From positions 1 to 42,446 of the forward strand of contig DATIYJ010000017.1 in the NCBI GenBank assembly GCA_035517655.1: a stretch of 42,446 bases of DNA, written 5' to 3'. How positions within the stretch are numbered: the stretch's first letter is position 1; every line of letters begins with the position of its first letter. This document shows, piece after piece, positions 1 to 10,564 of this stretch. This stretch comes from Nitrospiria bacterium. Lineage in GTDB: Bacteria; Nitrospirota; Nitrospiria; JACQBZ01. Position numbers and translations under genes: made by a program. The notes under the pieces were generated by a model. It was given only the letters and a program-made list of their open reading frames with translations, ran no database searches and was not told where the DNA came from.

Positions 1-609
1 GAGGTTGGCGAATTCCGACCTTTCTTCATTTCCCCAAGGCCATTTTCGCTGGTCCGTTCCTTTGGCGGCCTTCTCCCATTCCGCCTCGGTCGGAAGGCGC
101 TTCCCTTTCCATTGACAATACTCTACGGCGTCATCCCAGGACACTCCGACGACCGGGTTCGACGCCTTGATAAAAAGCGGTATGTCTTCCGTCACGCTGG
201 CCGAAAGATACCCGGCCAGCCGGGGTTTCCGGTGCCCGGTGAGTCCGATGAATTGGTAAAACTGCGCAAATGTGACTTCGAACTTGTCGATCGAATACCC
301 GTCTAAAAAAACCCTCCTAACAGGCTTTGCGTCATTGGATCCTTCGTTGCTTCCCATGAAAAATTCGCCCGCCGGAATGAAGACCATCGACTCCAGATCC
401 GGATCGATCTTGGCCTGTTTCACTTCCGCTTCGGCCTTCTGCGATTCTTCCGCCACCTTGGCCAATTTCTTCGCCAACGGAGTGTAGCCCTGATCGGCGC
501 CGGACACATCCGGCTCCGGCGGTCCCGTTTTCTCGCGGATGCCGATCTGGATAATCACCAGGATCGCGAAGACCACGGCCAAGTATAGGCCGATGAAGTA
601 TTTATTCAT
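1..609 (-). CDS. membrane-anchored FGE-sulfatase-fold protein, C-terminus cut by window edge
   Basis: The reading frame is open from an ATG at 609 to the window edge (203 residues seen, no stop). Residues 4-20 form one hydrophobic helix, then an Ala/Lys/Glu-rich linker (about 45-70), then the start of a formylglycine-generating-enzyme (SUMF1/FGE-sulfatase) domain: MVFIPAGEFFMGS at 75-87, VVGVSWDDAVEYC at 153-165, RLPTEAEWEKAA at 171-182, WPWGNE at 190-195. It is a paralogue of the gene at 1979-2884. The predicted topology puts the domain outside the cytoplasmic membrane. The ATG has no obvious Shine-Dalgarno, so it may be read as the last gene of the small-protein transcript from the promoter at 1637-1666. 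Family members without the catalytic cysteines are common as binding or scaffold proteins, and the part that would hold those cysteines is outside the window. Function is unknown. Confidence 0.88.
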   Translation of the reverse strand, partial: MNKYFIGLYLAVVFAILVIIQIGIREKTGPPEPDVSGADQGYTPLAKKLAKVAEESQKAEAEVKQAKIDPDLESMVFIPAGEFFMGSNEGSNDAKPVRRVFLDGYSIDKFEVTFAQFYQFIGLTGHRKPRLAGYLSASVTEDIPLFIKASNPVVGVSWDDAVEYCQWKGKRLPTEAEWEKAAKGTDQRKWPWGNEERSEFANL

Positions 610-816: not shown

Positions 817-1023
817 TCATCGCCGACGAGCCGTTACGGCGGCCTTGGGATCCGGCATGCCCACTTCACCGTTTGAACCCTCACTCGATGGCCATGCCGT
901 GGATTCGGATCGCTTTTGGCGGCTGACCCTAGACCGGTACAGCATCTGTCCGACAAAGATTCCGGCCATAAACACGGCACCCGTGTAAAACAGGACATAG
1001 ACGGCATAGAAGAAATGCTTCAC
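817..1023 (-). CDS. small membrane protein, AVFMAG-repeat family, copy 1
   Basis: This is a 68-residue protein starting at GTG, with a strong Shine-Dalgarno (GGGGGAGGG) about 6-8 bases upstream. Residues 1-30 form one transmembrane helix carrying YTGAVFMAGIFVGQ, followed by a basic then polar tail (YRSRVSRQKR) that should be cytoplasmic by the positive-inside rule. The same helix motif recurs in the next two upstream genes, which makes the gene credible despite its size. I do not recognise a named family. It sits in a same-strand cluster with the two other copies and an FGE-like gene downstream, probably one transcript. Bitopic membrane peptides of this size often act as subunits or regulators of larger membrane complexes; that role is only a guess here. 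Confidence 0.72.
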   Translation of the reverse strand: MKHFFYAVYVLFYTGAVFMAGIFVGQMLYRSRVSRQKRSESTAWPSSEGSNGEVGMPDPKAAVTARRR

Positions 1024-1117
1024 TCCGCTCCCTCCCCCAACGCCCCCCGTTCGATTGTAACGGCCGATTTAAAACCGCAATTCACGATTCCGGCCATCCG
1101 GCACCCCGAAACCGGTC

Positions 1118-1369
1118 TCACCGTTTTAAGGTCAGTTCATTCGACTCGCTGACCTCCGCCGGGTCGGATTCGGATCCTCTCGCGGAAGCCGATGTCGCCT
1201 GCGCGGAATATCTCTGCTCCAGTCTTTCCCCGATGTACATGCCGATCATAAAAACGGCCCCCGTGTACACCAACACGTAAAGCGCATACAACTGTCCCAC
1301 CAGCATGCCCGCCATGAAAACAGCGGCCGTGTAGACTCCGATGGATATCAATGAAAATAGACGCCGCAT
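1118..1369 (-). CDS. small membrane protein, AVFMAG-repeat family, copy 2 (internal duplication)
   Basis: This 83-residue protein has two copies of the cluster's helix motif in tandem: VYTAAVFMAGMLVGQ at about 12-26 and VYTGAVFMIGMYIGERLEQR at about 34-53. It is therefore predicted to cross the membrane twice, forming a hairpin, and then has a Ser/Glu-rich tail of about 30 residues. It reads as a fusion of two single-helix units like its neighbours. The ATG lacks a clear Shine-Dalgarno, so an upstream start in the same frame cannot be excluded. It is 95 bases downstream of copy 3 and 94 bases upstream of copy 1 on the minus strand. No known family is recognised. Confidence 0.7.
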   Translation of the reverse strand: MRRLFSLISIGVYTAAVFMAGMLVGQLYALYVLVYTGAVFMIGMYIGERLEQRYSAQATSASARGSESDPAEVSESNELTLKR

Positions 1370-1464
1370 TGACAGAGGACTTTTTTCTAATATCCGAACG
1401 TCGTTTTTCTAGCCCGACGACGTGCGGAAGAACGGACCCAAAGGAATCACTCCGCCGGGGCTGT

Positions 1465-1584
1465 TTAAGCCCCCCGACGGCTTCTCCACGCGCGTTCCAG
1501 TTTTTCACCCATATACATCCCGGCCATGAAAACGGCGGCCGAGTACAGGGAAACAGAAAGGGCGTAAAAAAAGAAATGGACCAT
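1465..1584 (-). CDS. 39-residue membrane peptide, AVFMAG-repeat family, copy 3
   Basis: The ORF runs ATG to TAA for 39 residues, beginning MVHFFFYALSVSLYSAAVFM and ending in a basic tail (EKLERAWRSRRGA). It holds one transmembrane helix with YSAAVFMAGMYMGEKLE, closely matching copies 1 and 2. An AGGGAGAA Shine-Dalgarno lies about 7 bases before the ATG, and a consensus-like promoter (1637-1666) lies 50 to 80 bases upstream, so this is probably the first gene of the transcript. The basic tail suggests N-out, C-in topology. It is a genuine-looking small gene with unknown function. Confidence 0.75.
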   Translation of the reverse strand: MVHFFFYALSVSLYSAAVFMAGMYMGEKLERAWRSRRGA

Positions 1585-1636: not shown

Positions 1637-1666
1637 ATTATAAAAGTTTTCCGGCCGTCGTGTCAA
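1637..1666 (-). promoter_or_regulatory. sigma70-type promoter of the small membrane protein cluster
   Basis: On the minus strand, TTGACA (1666-1661) and TATAAT (1642-1637) are separated by 18 bases, and both hexamers are perfect. It faces the 39-residue gene starting at 1584 and probably drives copies 3, 2, 1 and possibly the FGE-like gene. Confidence 0.8.
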
Positions 1667-1735: not shown

Positions 1736-1763
1736 TTGACTTTTAGCAGATCCTTGATAAAAT
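1736..1763 (+). promoter_or_regulatory. sigma70-type promoter of the 40-residue membrane peptide
   Basis: TTGACT (1736-1741) and TAAAAT (1758-1763) with a 16-base spacer; transcription would start near 1770, about 30 bases before the GTG at 1802. It is back to back with the minus-strand promoter at 1637-1666. Confidence 0.65.
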
Positions 1764-1801: not shown

Positions 1802-1924
1802 GTGGATACATCGGAACAGAAAAAAAGAAACACACCCACGTTTGACTTTATTGTCTTGCTGGGGATGGTGGCCAACCTTATCTTGGCCGTTTTCCTGATC
1901 CTTTACTACTTCGGTCTTCTCTAG
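1802..1924 (+). CDS. 40-residue single-helix membrane peptide
   Basis: A GTG-started ORF encodes a charged N-terminus (DTSEQKKRNTPTFD) and one strongly hydrophobic helix (FIVLLGMVANLILAVFLILY) ending GLL. The lysines and arginine at the N-terminus predict N-in, C-out topology. Support comes from a promoter 38 bases upstream, the clean amphipathic-to-hydrophobic layout and lack of any competing ORF. The Shine-Dalgarno is weak (GGAA about 9 bases upstream). It is not related in sequence to the AVFMAG peptides on the other strand, and its orientation opposite to the FGE-like gene at 1979-2884 makes the two convergent. Function is unknown. Confidence 0.58.
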   Translation: MDTSEQKKRNTPTFDFIVLLGMVANLILAVFLILYYFGLL

Positions 1925-1978: not shown

Positions 1979-2884
1979 TTACGGCCTTCCGGGAATGACA
2001 TCTTTGGCGCAACGAAATCCAATCACCGCACTGGTCTGGTGCGGGGCCGCCATGAACCGCTTCGCGACTCTCGCATTGCCCGAAGAATCATTCCAGGAAC
2101 CCCCGCGATACACCCTGAATTTTCCCGTCTCCGGTCCTTTTGGAGTTTTGAAAGGGGCGGTTTTATAATAGTCCGCATCATACCAATCGGCCACCCACTC
2201 TGCGGCATTGCCCGCCATATCGTATAAGCCATAGGGGCTCCGTCCCGCTTCAAACCGTCCCGGGGGGGCGAGGAATTTATAGCCGTCCTCTTCCCCCGTT
2301 AAATTGGCCGCCTTCTCGACGATATCATTTCCCCACGGCCATTGGAAACTTTCATCTCCCCCCGCCGCCTTCTCCCACTCGGCCTCGGTCGGCAACCGTT
2401 TCCCTGCCCATTGACAGTAATCTTTTGCGGCATTCCATGATATGCCCACCACGGGCAGCTCGGGCTTGGTGATTAAGGACAAATCGTCCTGAAAGACGGG
2501 AACCACGGGCTTGGGGTAATGGGTGTCCTCCGAGAATTTGGAGAATTGAGCTTGGGTAATCTCTTTCAGATCGATGTAAAAGGCCGGCAGGTAAACGGCA
2601 TGCTGCGGCATTTCGTCCAGATCCCCGGTTGAAGCTTTGCTGCCCATTTGGAATGGTCCATCCGGAATTAAAACCATGACGGACCCATCCTCATCGGCGA
2701 GCGTTTTAAAACGGCTGAAATCCCGCGGGACGATTTGTTCTTCACTTGTCTGCGCGACTTGCACGTTCTGAGACTTGGAATCCAAGCGGCTGGTTTCCCA
2801 TGCTTCATAGATGAAGACAACGATCATGAGAAAAAAAGCAGCGAAGGCGATAACCGTTCCGTAGTAAAACGCATCCTTCTTCAT
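1979..2884 (-). CDS. membrane-anchored FGE-sulfatase-fold (SUMF1-like) protein
   Basis: This 301-residue protein has one transmembrane helix at about 8-27, a linker (about 30-65) and a complete FGE-sulfatase domain: MVLIPDGPFQMGS from residue 69, VVGISWNAAKDYC, RLPTEAEWEKAA, YGLYDMAGNAAEWVADWY, RVYRGGSWNDS and the closing GFRCAK. In true formylglycine-generating enzymes the segment after GGSW carries the catalytic cysteines; here it reads NDSSGNARVAKRF and has none, so sulfatase activation is unlikely. It is a paralogue of the truncated protein at 1-609. An AAAGGAT Shine-Dalgarno precedes the ATG and a promoter lies at 2948-2976. It is probably a periplasm-facing structural or binding domain, of unknown partner. 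Confidence 0.93.
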   Translation of the reverse strand: MKKDAFYYGTVIAFAAFFLMIVVFIYEAWETSRLDSKSQNVQVAQTSEEQIVPRDFSRFKTLADEDGSVMVLIPDGPFQMGSKASTGDLDEMPQHAVYLPAFYIDLKEITQAQFSKFSEDTHYPKPVVPVFQDDLSLITKPELPVVGISWNAAKDYCQWAGKRLPTEAEWEKAAGGDESFQWPWGNDIVEKAANLTGEEDGYKFLAPPGRFEAGRSPYGLYDMAGNAAEWVADWYDADYYKTAPFKTPKGPETGKFRVYRGGSWNDSSGNARVAKRFMAAPHQTSAVIGFRCAKDVIPGRP

Positions 2885-2986: not shown

Positions 2987-3214
2987 TTGCGTATCGAAGC
3001 GACCGATGAAGATGACCTGGGCCATTGGCAATACCGGGACTGGTCCGACGACGCCCGGATCGAGATCATGTCTATTACAGACGCCCCCGGAACTTCTCAG
3101 GAGCTGAAGGGGATAAAGCAGGTCATCCGAGGCATTGCGTTCGCCGATTCGGGGATTCCCCACGGGATCACCGGCCTGCATGCGATCACGGTGAAAGTGG
3201 TCCAACGGCCGTAA
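2987..3214 (+). CDS. doubtful 75-codon ORF or gene remnant upstream of tRNA-Glu
   Basis: This frame starts at TTG after a stop codon. It has codon use like the real genes (third positions rich in G and C) and a protein-like sequence with a mixed acidic N-half and an aliphatic C-half (ending GITGLHAITVKVVQRP). No Shine-Dalgarno is visible. The frame overlaps nothing else convincing; the minus-strand ORF over the same bases looks like a shadow. It fills most of the 350-base gap between the FGE-fold gene and tRNA-Glu. It may be the 3' remnant of a larger gene whose N-terminus is lost. No family is recognised. Confidence 0.3.
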   Translation: MRIEATDEDDLGHWQYRDWSDDARIEIMSITDAPGTSQELKGIKQVIRGIAFADSGIPHGITGLHAITVKVVQRP

Positions 3215-5318: not shown

Positions 5319-6128
5319 TTATTTGGCGGCGAAGGCAAAATCGACCGTCGCTTTTCCCTTGGCCGGTACGGTTACCTTCATTTCCTGCCTCCCTAAGATC
5401 GGGTGGTAAGCATGAACTTCATAGGTGCCCGGCGGGATGTCATCAATGGTAAAGGTTCCATCCTCGTTGTCAATGGCATAATACGGGTTCGTCACGGGCT
5501 GGAAATAAACTTCCATGTAGTTGTGCTGGTCGCACTGTATCTTGACATCGCTCTCCTTCTTCCGAATGATCATCGGCTTCTTGATGACCTGTCCCTTCTC
5601 GGGAAGCGGAAGATTAAAGATGGTCGAGCTGCTGGCACCCACTATTTCGTAGGCATGGGGATTATGCAGCACGCCGGTGGCGGCCTTCGGATCTGTCGGG
5701 TCTGCATCTGTATTTAAGATCCGCATTTCAGCCTTTTTCACTACCACGCCCGTCAATGTGGAAGGGCCGCCTTGTACTTGAAACCGACAGATGTTTGTTT
5801 TTACATCGGTTCCATTAAATTTGAACGGTTTGCCTTTATCGATCTCTTCGATGTAGACCACAACGTCCCCCAAGGCCCCGTTCTTGACATTGACCTGCTG
5901 TACAAGGCGATGGCCTTTCCCGTCTGAATCGGCTTGTGCACAGAACTTGGGATTGGGGAATTTTGCAAAATCGAACTCCTTGGGTGCCGGAACGGCCCCC
6001 TTGAACGTCACCTTTCCGGTAATGGTTCCGCCATCGGGAACCGGAGCCTCGTCATAGGCCGAAACCATCGAGGTGCCGACCAAACCGACCGCACCCGCCG
6101 TCAGAATCGCAACGATAAACCCTTTCAT
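5319..6128 (-). CDS. secreted carboxypeptidase-regulatory-like / cupredoxin-like protein
   Basis: This 269-residue protein has a signal peptide (about 1-24, ending VSAYDEAP), then a beta-rich body. GTITGKVTFKGAVPAP (from about 34) opens a carboxypeptidase regulatory-like segment. A central region has HNPHAYEIVG and CDQHNYMEVYFQPVTNPYYAI, the latter resembling the copper-site loop of plastocyanin-like periplasmic proteins. The C-terminus, FTIDDIPPGTYEVHAYHP, is a typical transthyretin-like Ig strand pair. It is probably periplasmic; metal binding is possible through the His/Cys/Met residues but unproven. Tandem promoters (6377-6440), a roughly 250-base structured leader, an AAGGAG ribosome binding site and a strong terminator suggest an abundant, regulated transcript. 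Confidence 0.8.
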   Translation of the reverse strand: MKGFIVAILTAGAVGLVGTSMVSAYDEAPVPDGGTITGKVTFKGAVPAPKEFDFAKFPNPKFCAQADSDGKGHRLVQQVNVKNGALGDVVVYIEEIDKGKPFKFNGTDVKTNICRFQVQGGPSTLTGVVVKKAEMRILNTDADPTDPKAATGVLHNPHAYEIVGASSSTIFNLPLPEKGQVIKKPMIIRKKESDVKIQCDQHNYMEVYFQPVTNPYYAIDNEDGTFTIDDIPPGTYEVHAYHPILGRQEMKVTVPAKGKATVDFAFAAK

Positions 6129-8267: not shown

Positions 8268-9542
8268 TCAGGACGCGACCTTCATCGTGCAGCGATGCGC
8301 TTTGATATGGGATTCAAACTCTTCCGGAAAATGGCGCAGGCTGCATTCCACCGCCACCGCGGCCCCTGTGATGACCGTGCAATCACCGCGGCCTTTGACA
8401 AACCCGCTGAGCTGTTGGAGAGACCGGAGATCTTCCGGTTTTCCGTGTCCCGCTTCAATTTTTTCAAGGATTTGATGAAGGTAATGAGTACCCATCTTAC
8501 ACGGAGGGCACTGACCGCAGCTTTCATCTCTGAAAAAGTTACAAAACTTCATGGTTTGTTCGACCATGCATTGGGTGTCGTCCAGCACAATGACACCCGC
8601 AGACCCCAGACCGGATCCAATCGCCTTGAGCGAGTCAAAATCCATCGAGACATCGAGGTCCTTTGGCGTTAGAAAAGCATGCGACGGCCCGCCCGGATAA
8701 ACCGCCTTAAGCATCCTTCCGTCTTTTATTCCTCCGCCGAAGTCGTCGATGATTTTGCGGAGGGGAATACCAAGCGGAAGCTCGTATACACCGGGCCGGT
8801 TGACATCGCCGCTGATGGAGAACAGCATCGTTCCCGGACAGGTCTTGGTCCCGAACGACCGAAACCAGTCCGCGCCGTTGGAAACGATCGGCGGAACGTT
8901 CGAGAGTGTTTCGACATTGTTCACCACGGTCGGCTTACCGTATAATCCGTAGACGGTCGGATAAAAGGGAGGTTTGTGTTTGGGCTTTGCTTCGCGTCCC
9001 TGCATGCATTCCAGCATGGCGGTCTCTTCGCCGGCTACGTAGGTATCCGGCCCCAGAAAAATCTGGATGTCGCACGTAAATCCCTTTCCCAGGATGTTGC
9101 GTCCCAGCAATCCGTGCTTTTGCGCATCCAAGATCGCCTGTTTAACGAGCGCGATCTCTTCGGCGAAGGCCCCGTTCATAAACAGATGGGATTCCTTTGC
9201 CCCGACGGCGTAGGTCGCGATCGCGATGCCCTCTAGAAGTTGGTGGGGATTCAACCGAAGCAACAGACGATCTTTGTAGGTTCCGGGCTCATGTTCGCCC
9301 GCGTTGCAGGCCAGATAGCGTTCCAACCCCCGATGGGTCGCGACCATTTCCCATTTCTTCCCGGTTGGAAAACCGGCCCCTCCCCGTCCACGCAACCCCG
9401 AACGTTTGATCGTTTCAATGACATCGAGCGGCTGAGCCTGTCGGAGAACTTTCTCTAAAGCCTGGTACCCCCCCTTTTTTCGGTAAGTCTCCAGGTCGAT
9501 CGTTCCCTGCGTTGTCTCTTTCAACAGAATCTGCTGCGTCAC
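8268..9542 (-). CDS. NuoF-like NADH-binding flavoprotein (FMN, 4Fe-4S)
   Basis: This 424-residue protein is homologous to NADH-quinone oxidoreductase subunit F and to the diaphorase subunits of NAD-linked hydrogenases and formate dehydrogenases. Seen: GRGGAGFPTGKKW at 52-64 (NADH/FMN glycine loop), CNAGEHEPGTYKDR and VAGEETAMLECMQG (FMN region), and the 4Fe-4S ligands C342, C345, C348 (ESCGQCPPC) with C388 in GRGDC. It starts at GTG with GGGAG about 7 bases upstream. No NuoE, NuoG or other complex I gene is adjacent; the only redox neighbour is the 2Fe-2S ferredoxin. It is therefore probably a stand-alone NAD(P)H:ferredoxin or dehydrogenase-linked module rather than part of a nuo operon. Calling it nuoF would be premature. 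Confidence 0.93.
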   Translation of the reverse strand: MTQQILLKETTQGTIDLETYRKKGGYQALEKVLRQAQPLDVIETIKRSGLRGRGGAGFPTGKKWEMVATHRGLERYLACNAGEHEPGTYKDRLLLRLNPHQLLEGIAIATYAVGAKESHLFMNGAFAEEIALVKQAILDAQKHGLLGRNILGKGFTCDIQIFLGPDTYVAGEETAMLECMQGREAKPKHKPPFYPTVYGLYGKPTVVNNVETLSNVPPIVSNGADWFRSFGTKTCPGTMLFSISGDVNRPGVYELPLGIPLRKIIDDFGGGIKDGRMLKAVYPGGPSHAFLTPKDLDVSMDFDSLKAIGSGLGSAGVIVLDDTQCMVEQTMKFCNFFRDESCGQCPPCKMGTHYLHQILEKIEAGHGKPEDLRSLQQLSGFVKGRGDCTVITGAAVAVECSLRHFPEEFESHIKAHRCTMKVAS

Positions 9543-10135: not shown

Positions 10136-10366
10136 AATGCCTCCTTGGTTATAATCGTTGTAAACACAAGAATTAAATTGACTTTTTGTACAAATACCTT
10201 GTCGGATTTACAAAGAGTCAAACGTATAATAAAATACACCTCCTCATTTTATATTGTCAACTCAATAATCAGCACACGGATCGACGTGGTTTGGCTGAAT
10301 TTTTTTCGGAAAGGTATGAGCTCGGGCGGCTCACAGGATTAGCAGAAGAAATATCCGGATGAGACG

Positions 10367-10564
10367 TCAGCGAAACACCAATCGCTTCCGCGTCTTGCTC
10401 CCGATCGGCGCAGGCCGATTTTTTCGATTGGCCAGGATCACAGGATCAATGATCTCACCGCAACCAAGGCACCGCCAGCCAAAAAAGAATAACGCCCCGG
10501 TATCATCCCGAAGGTCCTCAAAGGGTTCGCGAACCATGTAGCTTTCACAACGTGGACATTTCAT
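10367..10564 (-). CDS. small double-CxxC zinc ribbon protein, copy A
   Basis: This is a 65-residue protein with CPRC at 3-6 and CLGC at 32-35, the spacing of a zinc ribbon. A conserved DLRDDTGALFFFGWRC middle, then IIDPVILANRK and a basic tail, follow. It is clearly paralogous to the 68-residue protein at 23652-23858 (shared MVxxxFxDxRDDTG, CGEIIDPVIL). It has a perfect-hexamer promoter, and a palindrome sits over its transcription start, so expression is probably regulated. It lies beside, and is transcribed in the same direction as, the sigma54-type activator upstream. It could be a DNA- or protein-binding small regulator; no function is established. Confidence 0.85.
   Translation of the reverse strand: MKCPRCESYMVREPFEDLRDDTGALFFFGWRCLGCGEIIDPVILANRKNRPAPIGSKTRKRLVFR

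Follow-up and report, generated by a model that had tools for sequence, protein, structure and literature searches.

Small one-helix proteins as candidate subunits of a TO_1-type cytochrome bd-like oxidase in Nitrospiria

Several tiny helices surround a large cofactor-bearing membrane core in the complexes that contain CcoQ, PetG/L/M/N or PsbI. Similar to the locus presented here, CydX and CydH (CydY) are one-helix proteins of the 37-40 aa class encoded beside a CydA homologue, and PMC6005532 describes CydX as required for the function of cytochrome bd in E. coli. According to PMC3578206, the bd-like oxidases have 14 predicted helices and no quinol loop. It has previously been reported in PMC6606698 that Nitrospira possesses a region with a bd-like oxidase (bd-like_2) and an alternative NxrC, and PMC9040806 describes the TO_1 oxidase with a periplasmic cytochrome b. 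In the TO_1 / bd-like_2 cluster of these two papers, a CydA-like protein, c-type cytochromes and an EB_dh/alt-NxrC-type subunit were encoded together, as in the cluster analysed here. The bd-like oxidase has been proposed as the main terminal oxidase of the Nitrospira nitrite oxidisers and is a candidate in manganese lithotrophy. At the terms searched, PMC9040806, PMC6606698 and PMC3578206 made no mention of FGE-fold or tiny proteins. Our targeted full-text literature searches, with subscription papers outside their scope, also returned no report of the small proteins or FGE genes described below.

We analysed a stretch of 42,446 nucleotides from a Nitrospiria bacterium (contig DATIYJ010000017.1 of assembly GCA_035517655.1), hereafter the window. 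A sequence-only reading had pointed to three minus-strand ORFs of 68, 83 and 39 residues, all of which we found; we named them A, B and C in the order of transcription. Gene A (1465..1584, minus strand) was an ORF with orthologues in relatives and encoded 39 aa from an ATG start, with one transmembrane helix (MVHFFFYALSVSLYSAAVFMAGMYMGEKLERAW...). Gene B (1118..1369, minus strand), an ORF with a 13-member alignment, encoded 83 aa from an ATG start and contained two hydrophobic segments. The AF2 monomer of B was a single unbroken helix (2-66, pLDDT 81), and a membrane hairpin was not confirmed by this monomer model. Gene C (817..1023, minus strand) was an ORF of 68 aa with a GTG start, one transmembrane helix and a basic C-terminal tail. 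Its start position was supported since the start codons of relatives varied among GTG, ATG and TTG at one fixed place; the N-terminus MKH..Y..Y was invariant across families. Upstream of A, a sigma-70 promoter (TTGACA-N18-TATAAT, 1637..1666, minus strand) matched the consensus at 12/12 positions, and both hexamers were kept in 6/6 genomes of the family as islands in drifting flanking DNA. The Shine-Dalgarno sequence AGGGAG preceded A and GGGAGG preceded C, while B had no good one. Thus, the perfect-hexamer promoter and the good ribosome binding sites of two of the three genes were confirmed as they had been predicted, and the three paralogous genes looked expressed.

The helix unit Y-S/T-x-A-V-F-M-x-G was common to the three genes and occurred once in A, twice in B and once in C. 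Local pairwise scores of the four units were 56-87 compared to shuffle means of 21-25 for all six pairs, and none of the 2000 composition- and region-preserving shuffles of each pair reached the observed score. The similarity was far above chance and was no composition effect. The shared helix claimed from the sequence alone was therefore real, but its double occurrence in B held in the window's family only; elsewhere the motif was confined to the second B helix. Identity at third codon positions between the helix copies was only 33-52%, which ruled out a recent tandem DNA duplication as their source and indicated that the copies were old.

Searches of Pfam and NCBIfam with A, B and C, and with the further small proteins D, E and F described below, brought no family to its curated cut-off (best Pfam E-value 0.01), in agreement with the earlier statement that no named family has this motif. 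Matches under the cut-off to NuoJ-like Oxidored_q3 (0.01), XapX (0.013), DUF2208, Mntp, holin and SLATT were judged to be composition matches. There was no significant sequence match to CcoQ, PetG/L/M/N or PsbI (PsbI E 3.2 only). The CydX/YbgT profile PF08173 exceeded its cut-off in 0/21 genomes, the window genome included, with nothing at the cassette; it matched neither A, B, C, D, E and F nor the further relatives of C and B. To our knowledge, the shared motif AVFM.G..xGQ/E..ER does not occur in CydX. On the other hand, encoding in the operon of a CydA homologue, which is characteristic of CydX, was found here by synteny with a CydA-like gene in relatives. It appears that A, B and C may act like CydX while standing outside the CydX family by profile.

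Position 1 of the window was a contig break inside the gene for an FGE-fold protein (FGE2), and the oxidase genes lay beyond the window. In relatives, the sequence beyond the break encoded a CydA-like protein (640 aa; PF01654, 1.6e-15), a pair of cytochromes c with 405 aa (c405) and 304 aa (c304), and a protein of 572 aa (c/EB_dh) that combined two cytochrome c motifs with an EB_dh (ethylbenzene-dehydrogenase-type) domain (2.4e-14); a CydB gene was absent beside the CydA-like gene. Five genomes of the family, and the loci of other families wherever complete, had the order FGE1 - [D on the opposite strand] - A - B - C - FGE2 - E - F - CydA-like - c405 - c304 - c/EB_dh. Loci cut by contig ends (L022, L024, L029) agreed with this order as far as their sequence went, and in locus L021 FGE1 was not found and D was placed elsewhere. 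A CydA-like core, c-type cytochromes and an EB_dh-type subunit were thus present together in relatives, and by gene content, rather than by accession, we identified the cluster as the TO_1 bd-like terminal oxidase of Nitrospirota, non-canonical in comparison to cytochrome bd. Within the genome that contains the window, another contig (C66) ended with the C-terminal 391 residues of the CydA-like protein. Synteny across the contig break suggested that C66 adjoins the window contig and that the gap between them contains the remainder of FGE2, both E and F, and the beginning of CydA. Sequence searches of the PDB with A and with the CydA-like protein gave no matches, and no solved structure corresponded to the oxidase core by sequence. 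The list of conserved small proteins and dead FGE-fold partners can guide structural and proteomic work. The same genome had two more bd-like CydA paralogues (L039 on contig C58, 3828-5210 and 8709-10337, plus strand), which were 38-45% identical to the TO_1 CydA, one of them with a stop inside the matched stretch.

The genes on both sides of the cassette had been read as membrane-anchored FGE-fold proteins, which our results supported. FGE1 (1979..2884, minus strand) matched PF03781 at 3e-58, and FGE2 (1..609, minus strand), cut by the contig end, at 1.1e-34; complete FGE2 orthologues were present in loci L016-L020. The single N-terminal hydrophobic segment suggested a periplasmic FGE domain on a membrane anchor. 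When FGE1 was aligned to human FGE, the segment of Cys336/Cys341 read NDSSGNAR and contained no Cys, and a Cys in the catalytic segment was found in 0/34 cluster FGEs with the RG[G/A]SW segment. Since the catalytic cysteines were missing, these proteins were not expected to make formylglycine. The FGE fold is shared with FGE/SUMF1 and with GldK/PorK, which are, by profile name, FGE-like lipoproteins of the type IX secretion ring. However, the score against GldK (108.5) was far under the GldK cut-off of 350, and the cluster FGEs differed from both groups in that they had no catalytic Cys pair, carried an N-terminal membrane anchor and lay in an oxidase cluster. By analogy with GldK/PorK, the role of FGE1 and FGE2 may be structural.

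The sequence-only reading had proposed that the tiny genes and the FGE genes formed one duplicated module and that the helices were membrane partners of the FGE-fold proteins. The first proposal did not hold: FGE2 stood beside the oxidase without A-B-C in most Nitrospiria examined, FGE1 did so too in Nitrospira and some others, and the two FGE genes abutted in Nitrospira with no cassette between them. The second was right that the tiny genes adjoined FGE genes in the complete cassette loci, but it missed the TO_1 oxidase. A pairing of A, B and C with the FGE-fold proteins alone, in a membrane or periplasmic complex apart from the oxidase, is quite improbable. In every complete cassette locus but L021, A-B-C was indeed flanked by FGE1 and FGE2, with C directly before FGE2, but FGE2 in most of the Nitrospiria examined and FGE1 in some occurred beside oxidase genes without the cassette, and FGE2 was directly ahead of E, F and CydA. 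Beside FGE1 in the Nitrospira TO_1 clusters, we also observed a membrane protein rich in glycine and about 130 aa long (L107:12456-12857(-), L117:6985-7386(+), L118:13659-14051(-)), whose L107 copy had no Pfam match.

D, E and F were one-helix proteins of about 27-60 aa. Gene D (1802..1924, plus strand), which the sequence-only reading had not included with A-B-C, was divergent from them and encoded 40 aa from a GTG start; a promoter-like site before it (TTGACT-N16-TAAAAT, 1736..1763, plus strand) matched the consensus at 10/12 positions and was partly conserved in relatives. Its dN/dS among five relatives was 0.01-0.13. F and E were directly upstream of the bd-like oxidase gene in Nitrospira and relatives, for example at L018:8264-8389(-) and 8435-8554(-), respectively, and at L107:10065-10187(-) and 10247-10450(-). 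Both lay immediately upstream of the TO_1 CydA in 29/30 loci, the exception being cut by a contig end. The D profile matched in 23 loci, and D occurred with TO_1 both across Nitrospiria and in a second class of Nitrospirota; in the latter, most of the loci found had D-E-F ahead of CydA, with all of these genes on one strand. In Nitrospira and relatives, A-B-C was absent and FGE2 (plus FGE1 in several) ran straight into D, E, F and CydA. Among 396 genomes of the phylum, D was present in 163 and the TO_1 CydA, called at E up to 1e-200, in 164; both were present in 159, one alone in 9 and neither in 228. These co-occurrence counts were made by hand from match lists, and no probability follows from them because related genomes are not independent. 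Among the exceptions, the TO_1-positive genome G118 had the gene at a contig start, and of four D-positive genomes without TO_1 at the cut-off three had weak D scores.

In contrast to TO_1 at large, A-B-C was confined to a single monophyletic group within Nitrospiria, whose members are known from metagenomes of groundwater and similar sources. Homologues beyond the window's genome, whose absence would have counted against the earlier reading, did exist: orthologues of A were present in 5 genomes of the family and at the same position in the other cassette-bearing families. Gene C was credible in 11 of the 396 phylum genomes, all from families f1, f3, f5, f6 and f7; a twelfth was marginal (9.4e-4), and additional members were found beyond this sample. 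A scan of genome contigs gave seven relatives, all of them Nitrospirae/Nitrospiria records from groundwater or similar metagenomes. In the tree of CydA-like proteins, the cassette-bearing loci made up exactly one clade (13/13 leaves, support 0.948), which pointed to a single gain of A-B-C or a single loss in the sister line. Identity of the TO_1 CydA to the query was about 70% or higher where the cassette was present and 68% or lower where it was absent. C-like one-helix genes also occurred outside TO_1 loci, in three genomes (G003, G004, G008). Among such genes, those at L032:1154-1408(+) and L033:237-482(+) were ahead of an outer-membrane-like exported protein, and that at L023:5293-5538(-) was ahead of a radical-SAM/PCP_red gene.

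Among six genomes of the family, dN/dS was 0.06-0.28 for A, 0.07-0.21 for B and 0.07-0.27 for C, values that are approximate since several synonymous distances were high. A, B and C were under purifying selection, and a random codon pattern, which would have counted against the earlier reading, was not seen. Moreover, the order and position of A-B-C were invariant across five families. Regulators, stress peptides or toxin-like hydrophobic peptides present in the cluster by chance would share size and hydrophobicity with A, B and C. No toxin or holin family reached its cut-off, however, and the fixed order and position in five families, the purifying selection and the steady link to one enzyme made this explanation very improbable.

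In the somewhat favoured reading, A, B and C serve the TO_1-type cytochrome bd-like oxidase of Nitrospiria as small membrane subunits specific to their lineage and are transcribed together with FGE2 and probably also with the oxidase genes. The C-like genes outside TO_1 loci speak against this reading. A, B and C may instead be assembly or maturation factors, acting in heme or copper insertion or in cytochrome docking and absent from the finished oxidase complex, a serious rival that we nevertheless regard as unlikely. One-helix assembly proteins exist for several oxidases, the operon and synteny would fit them equally well, genes for an ABC exporter and a protoporphyrinogen oxidase-like protein lay close to the cluster in some families, and radical-SAM genes, one of them encoding a PCP_red domain, neighboured the C-like genes away from TO_1. 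On the other hand, A, B and C had no metal-binding Cys and only a single conserved His, in A and C, and the restriction to one clade suited add-on subunits at least as well.

As subunits, the one-helix proteins would pack against the CydA-like core as CydX does against CydA, with the C-termini of A and C in the cytoplasm because of their basic tails. D, E and F, joined by A, B and C in the cassette lineage, may lie along the core and give stability to it or to its interface with the cytochrome subunits, while FGE1 and FGE2 would act in the periplasm, structurally, as a dock or scaffold for the EB_dh and cytochrome c subunits. D, E and F could be the older small subunits of TO_1 and A-B-C later additions. 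Since the oxidase works without A-B-C in most Nitrospiria, the cassette was not essential to its chemistry. At roughly even chances, TO_1 in general may be a large multi-subunit enzyme whose core carries D, E and F together with catalytically dead FGE-fold periplasmic proteins, including that of the nitrite-oxidising Nitrospira and probably of the manganese-oxidiser relatives, with A, B and C contributing four more helices in a single groundwater lineage. Small helix subunits of oxidases are already known as such; what would be new is a larger set of them on a poorly known oxidase. With D, E and F, cultured Nitrospira offer a direct way to test the subunit question.

Two other features were observed in the window. 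An exported beta-sandwich protein (5319..6128, minus strand; CarboxypepD_reg-like, with weak Pfam matches) recurred beside FGE1 in relatives. At 2987-3202 (plus strand), there was a decayed SorA/YedY-like molybdopterin oxidoreductase gene, of which two matching pieces remained and the middle was missing; L018, L019 and L020 had a full-length copy of this gene, and L016 a broken one.
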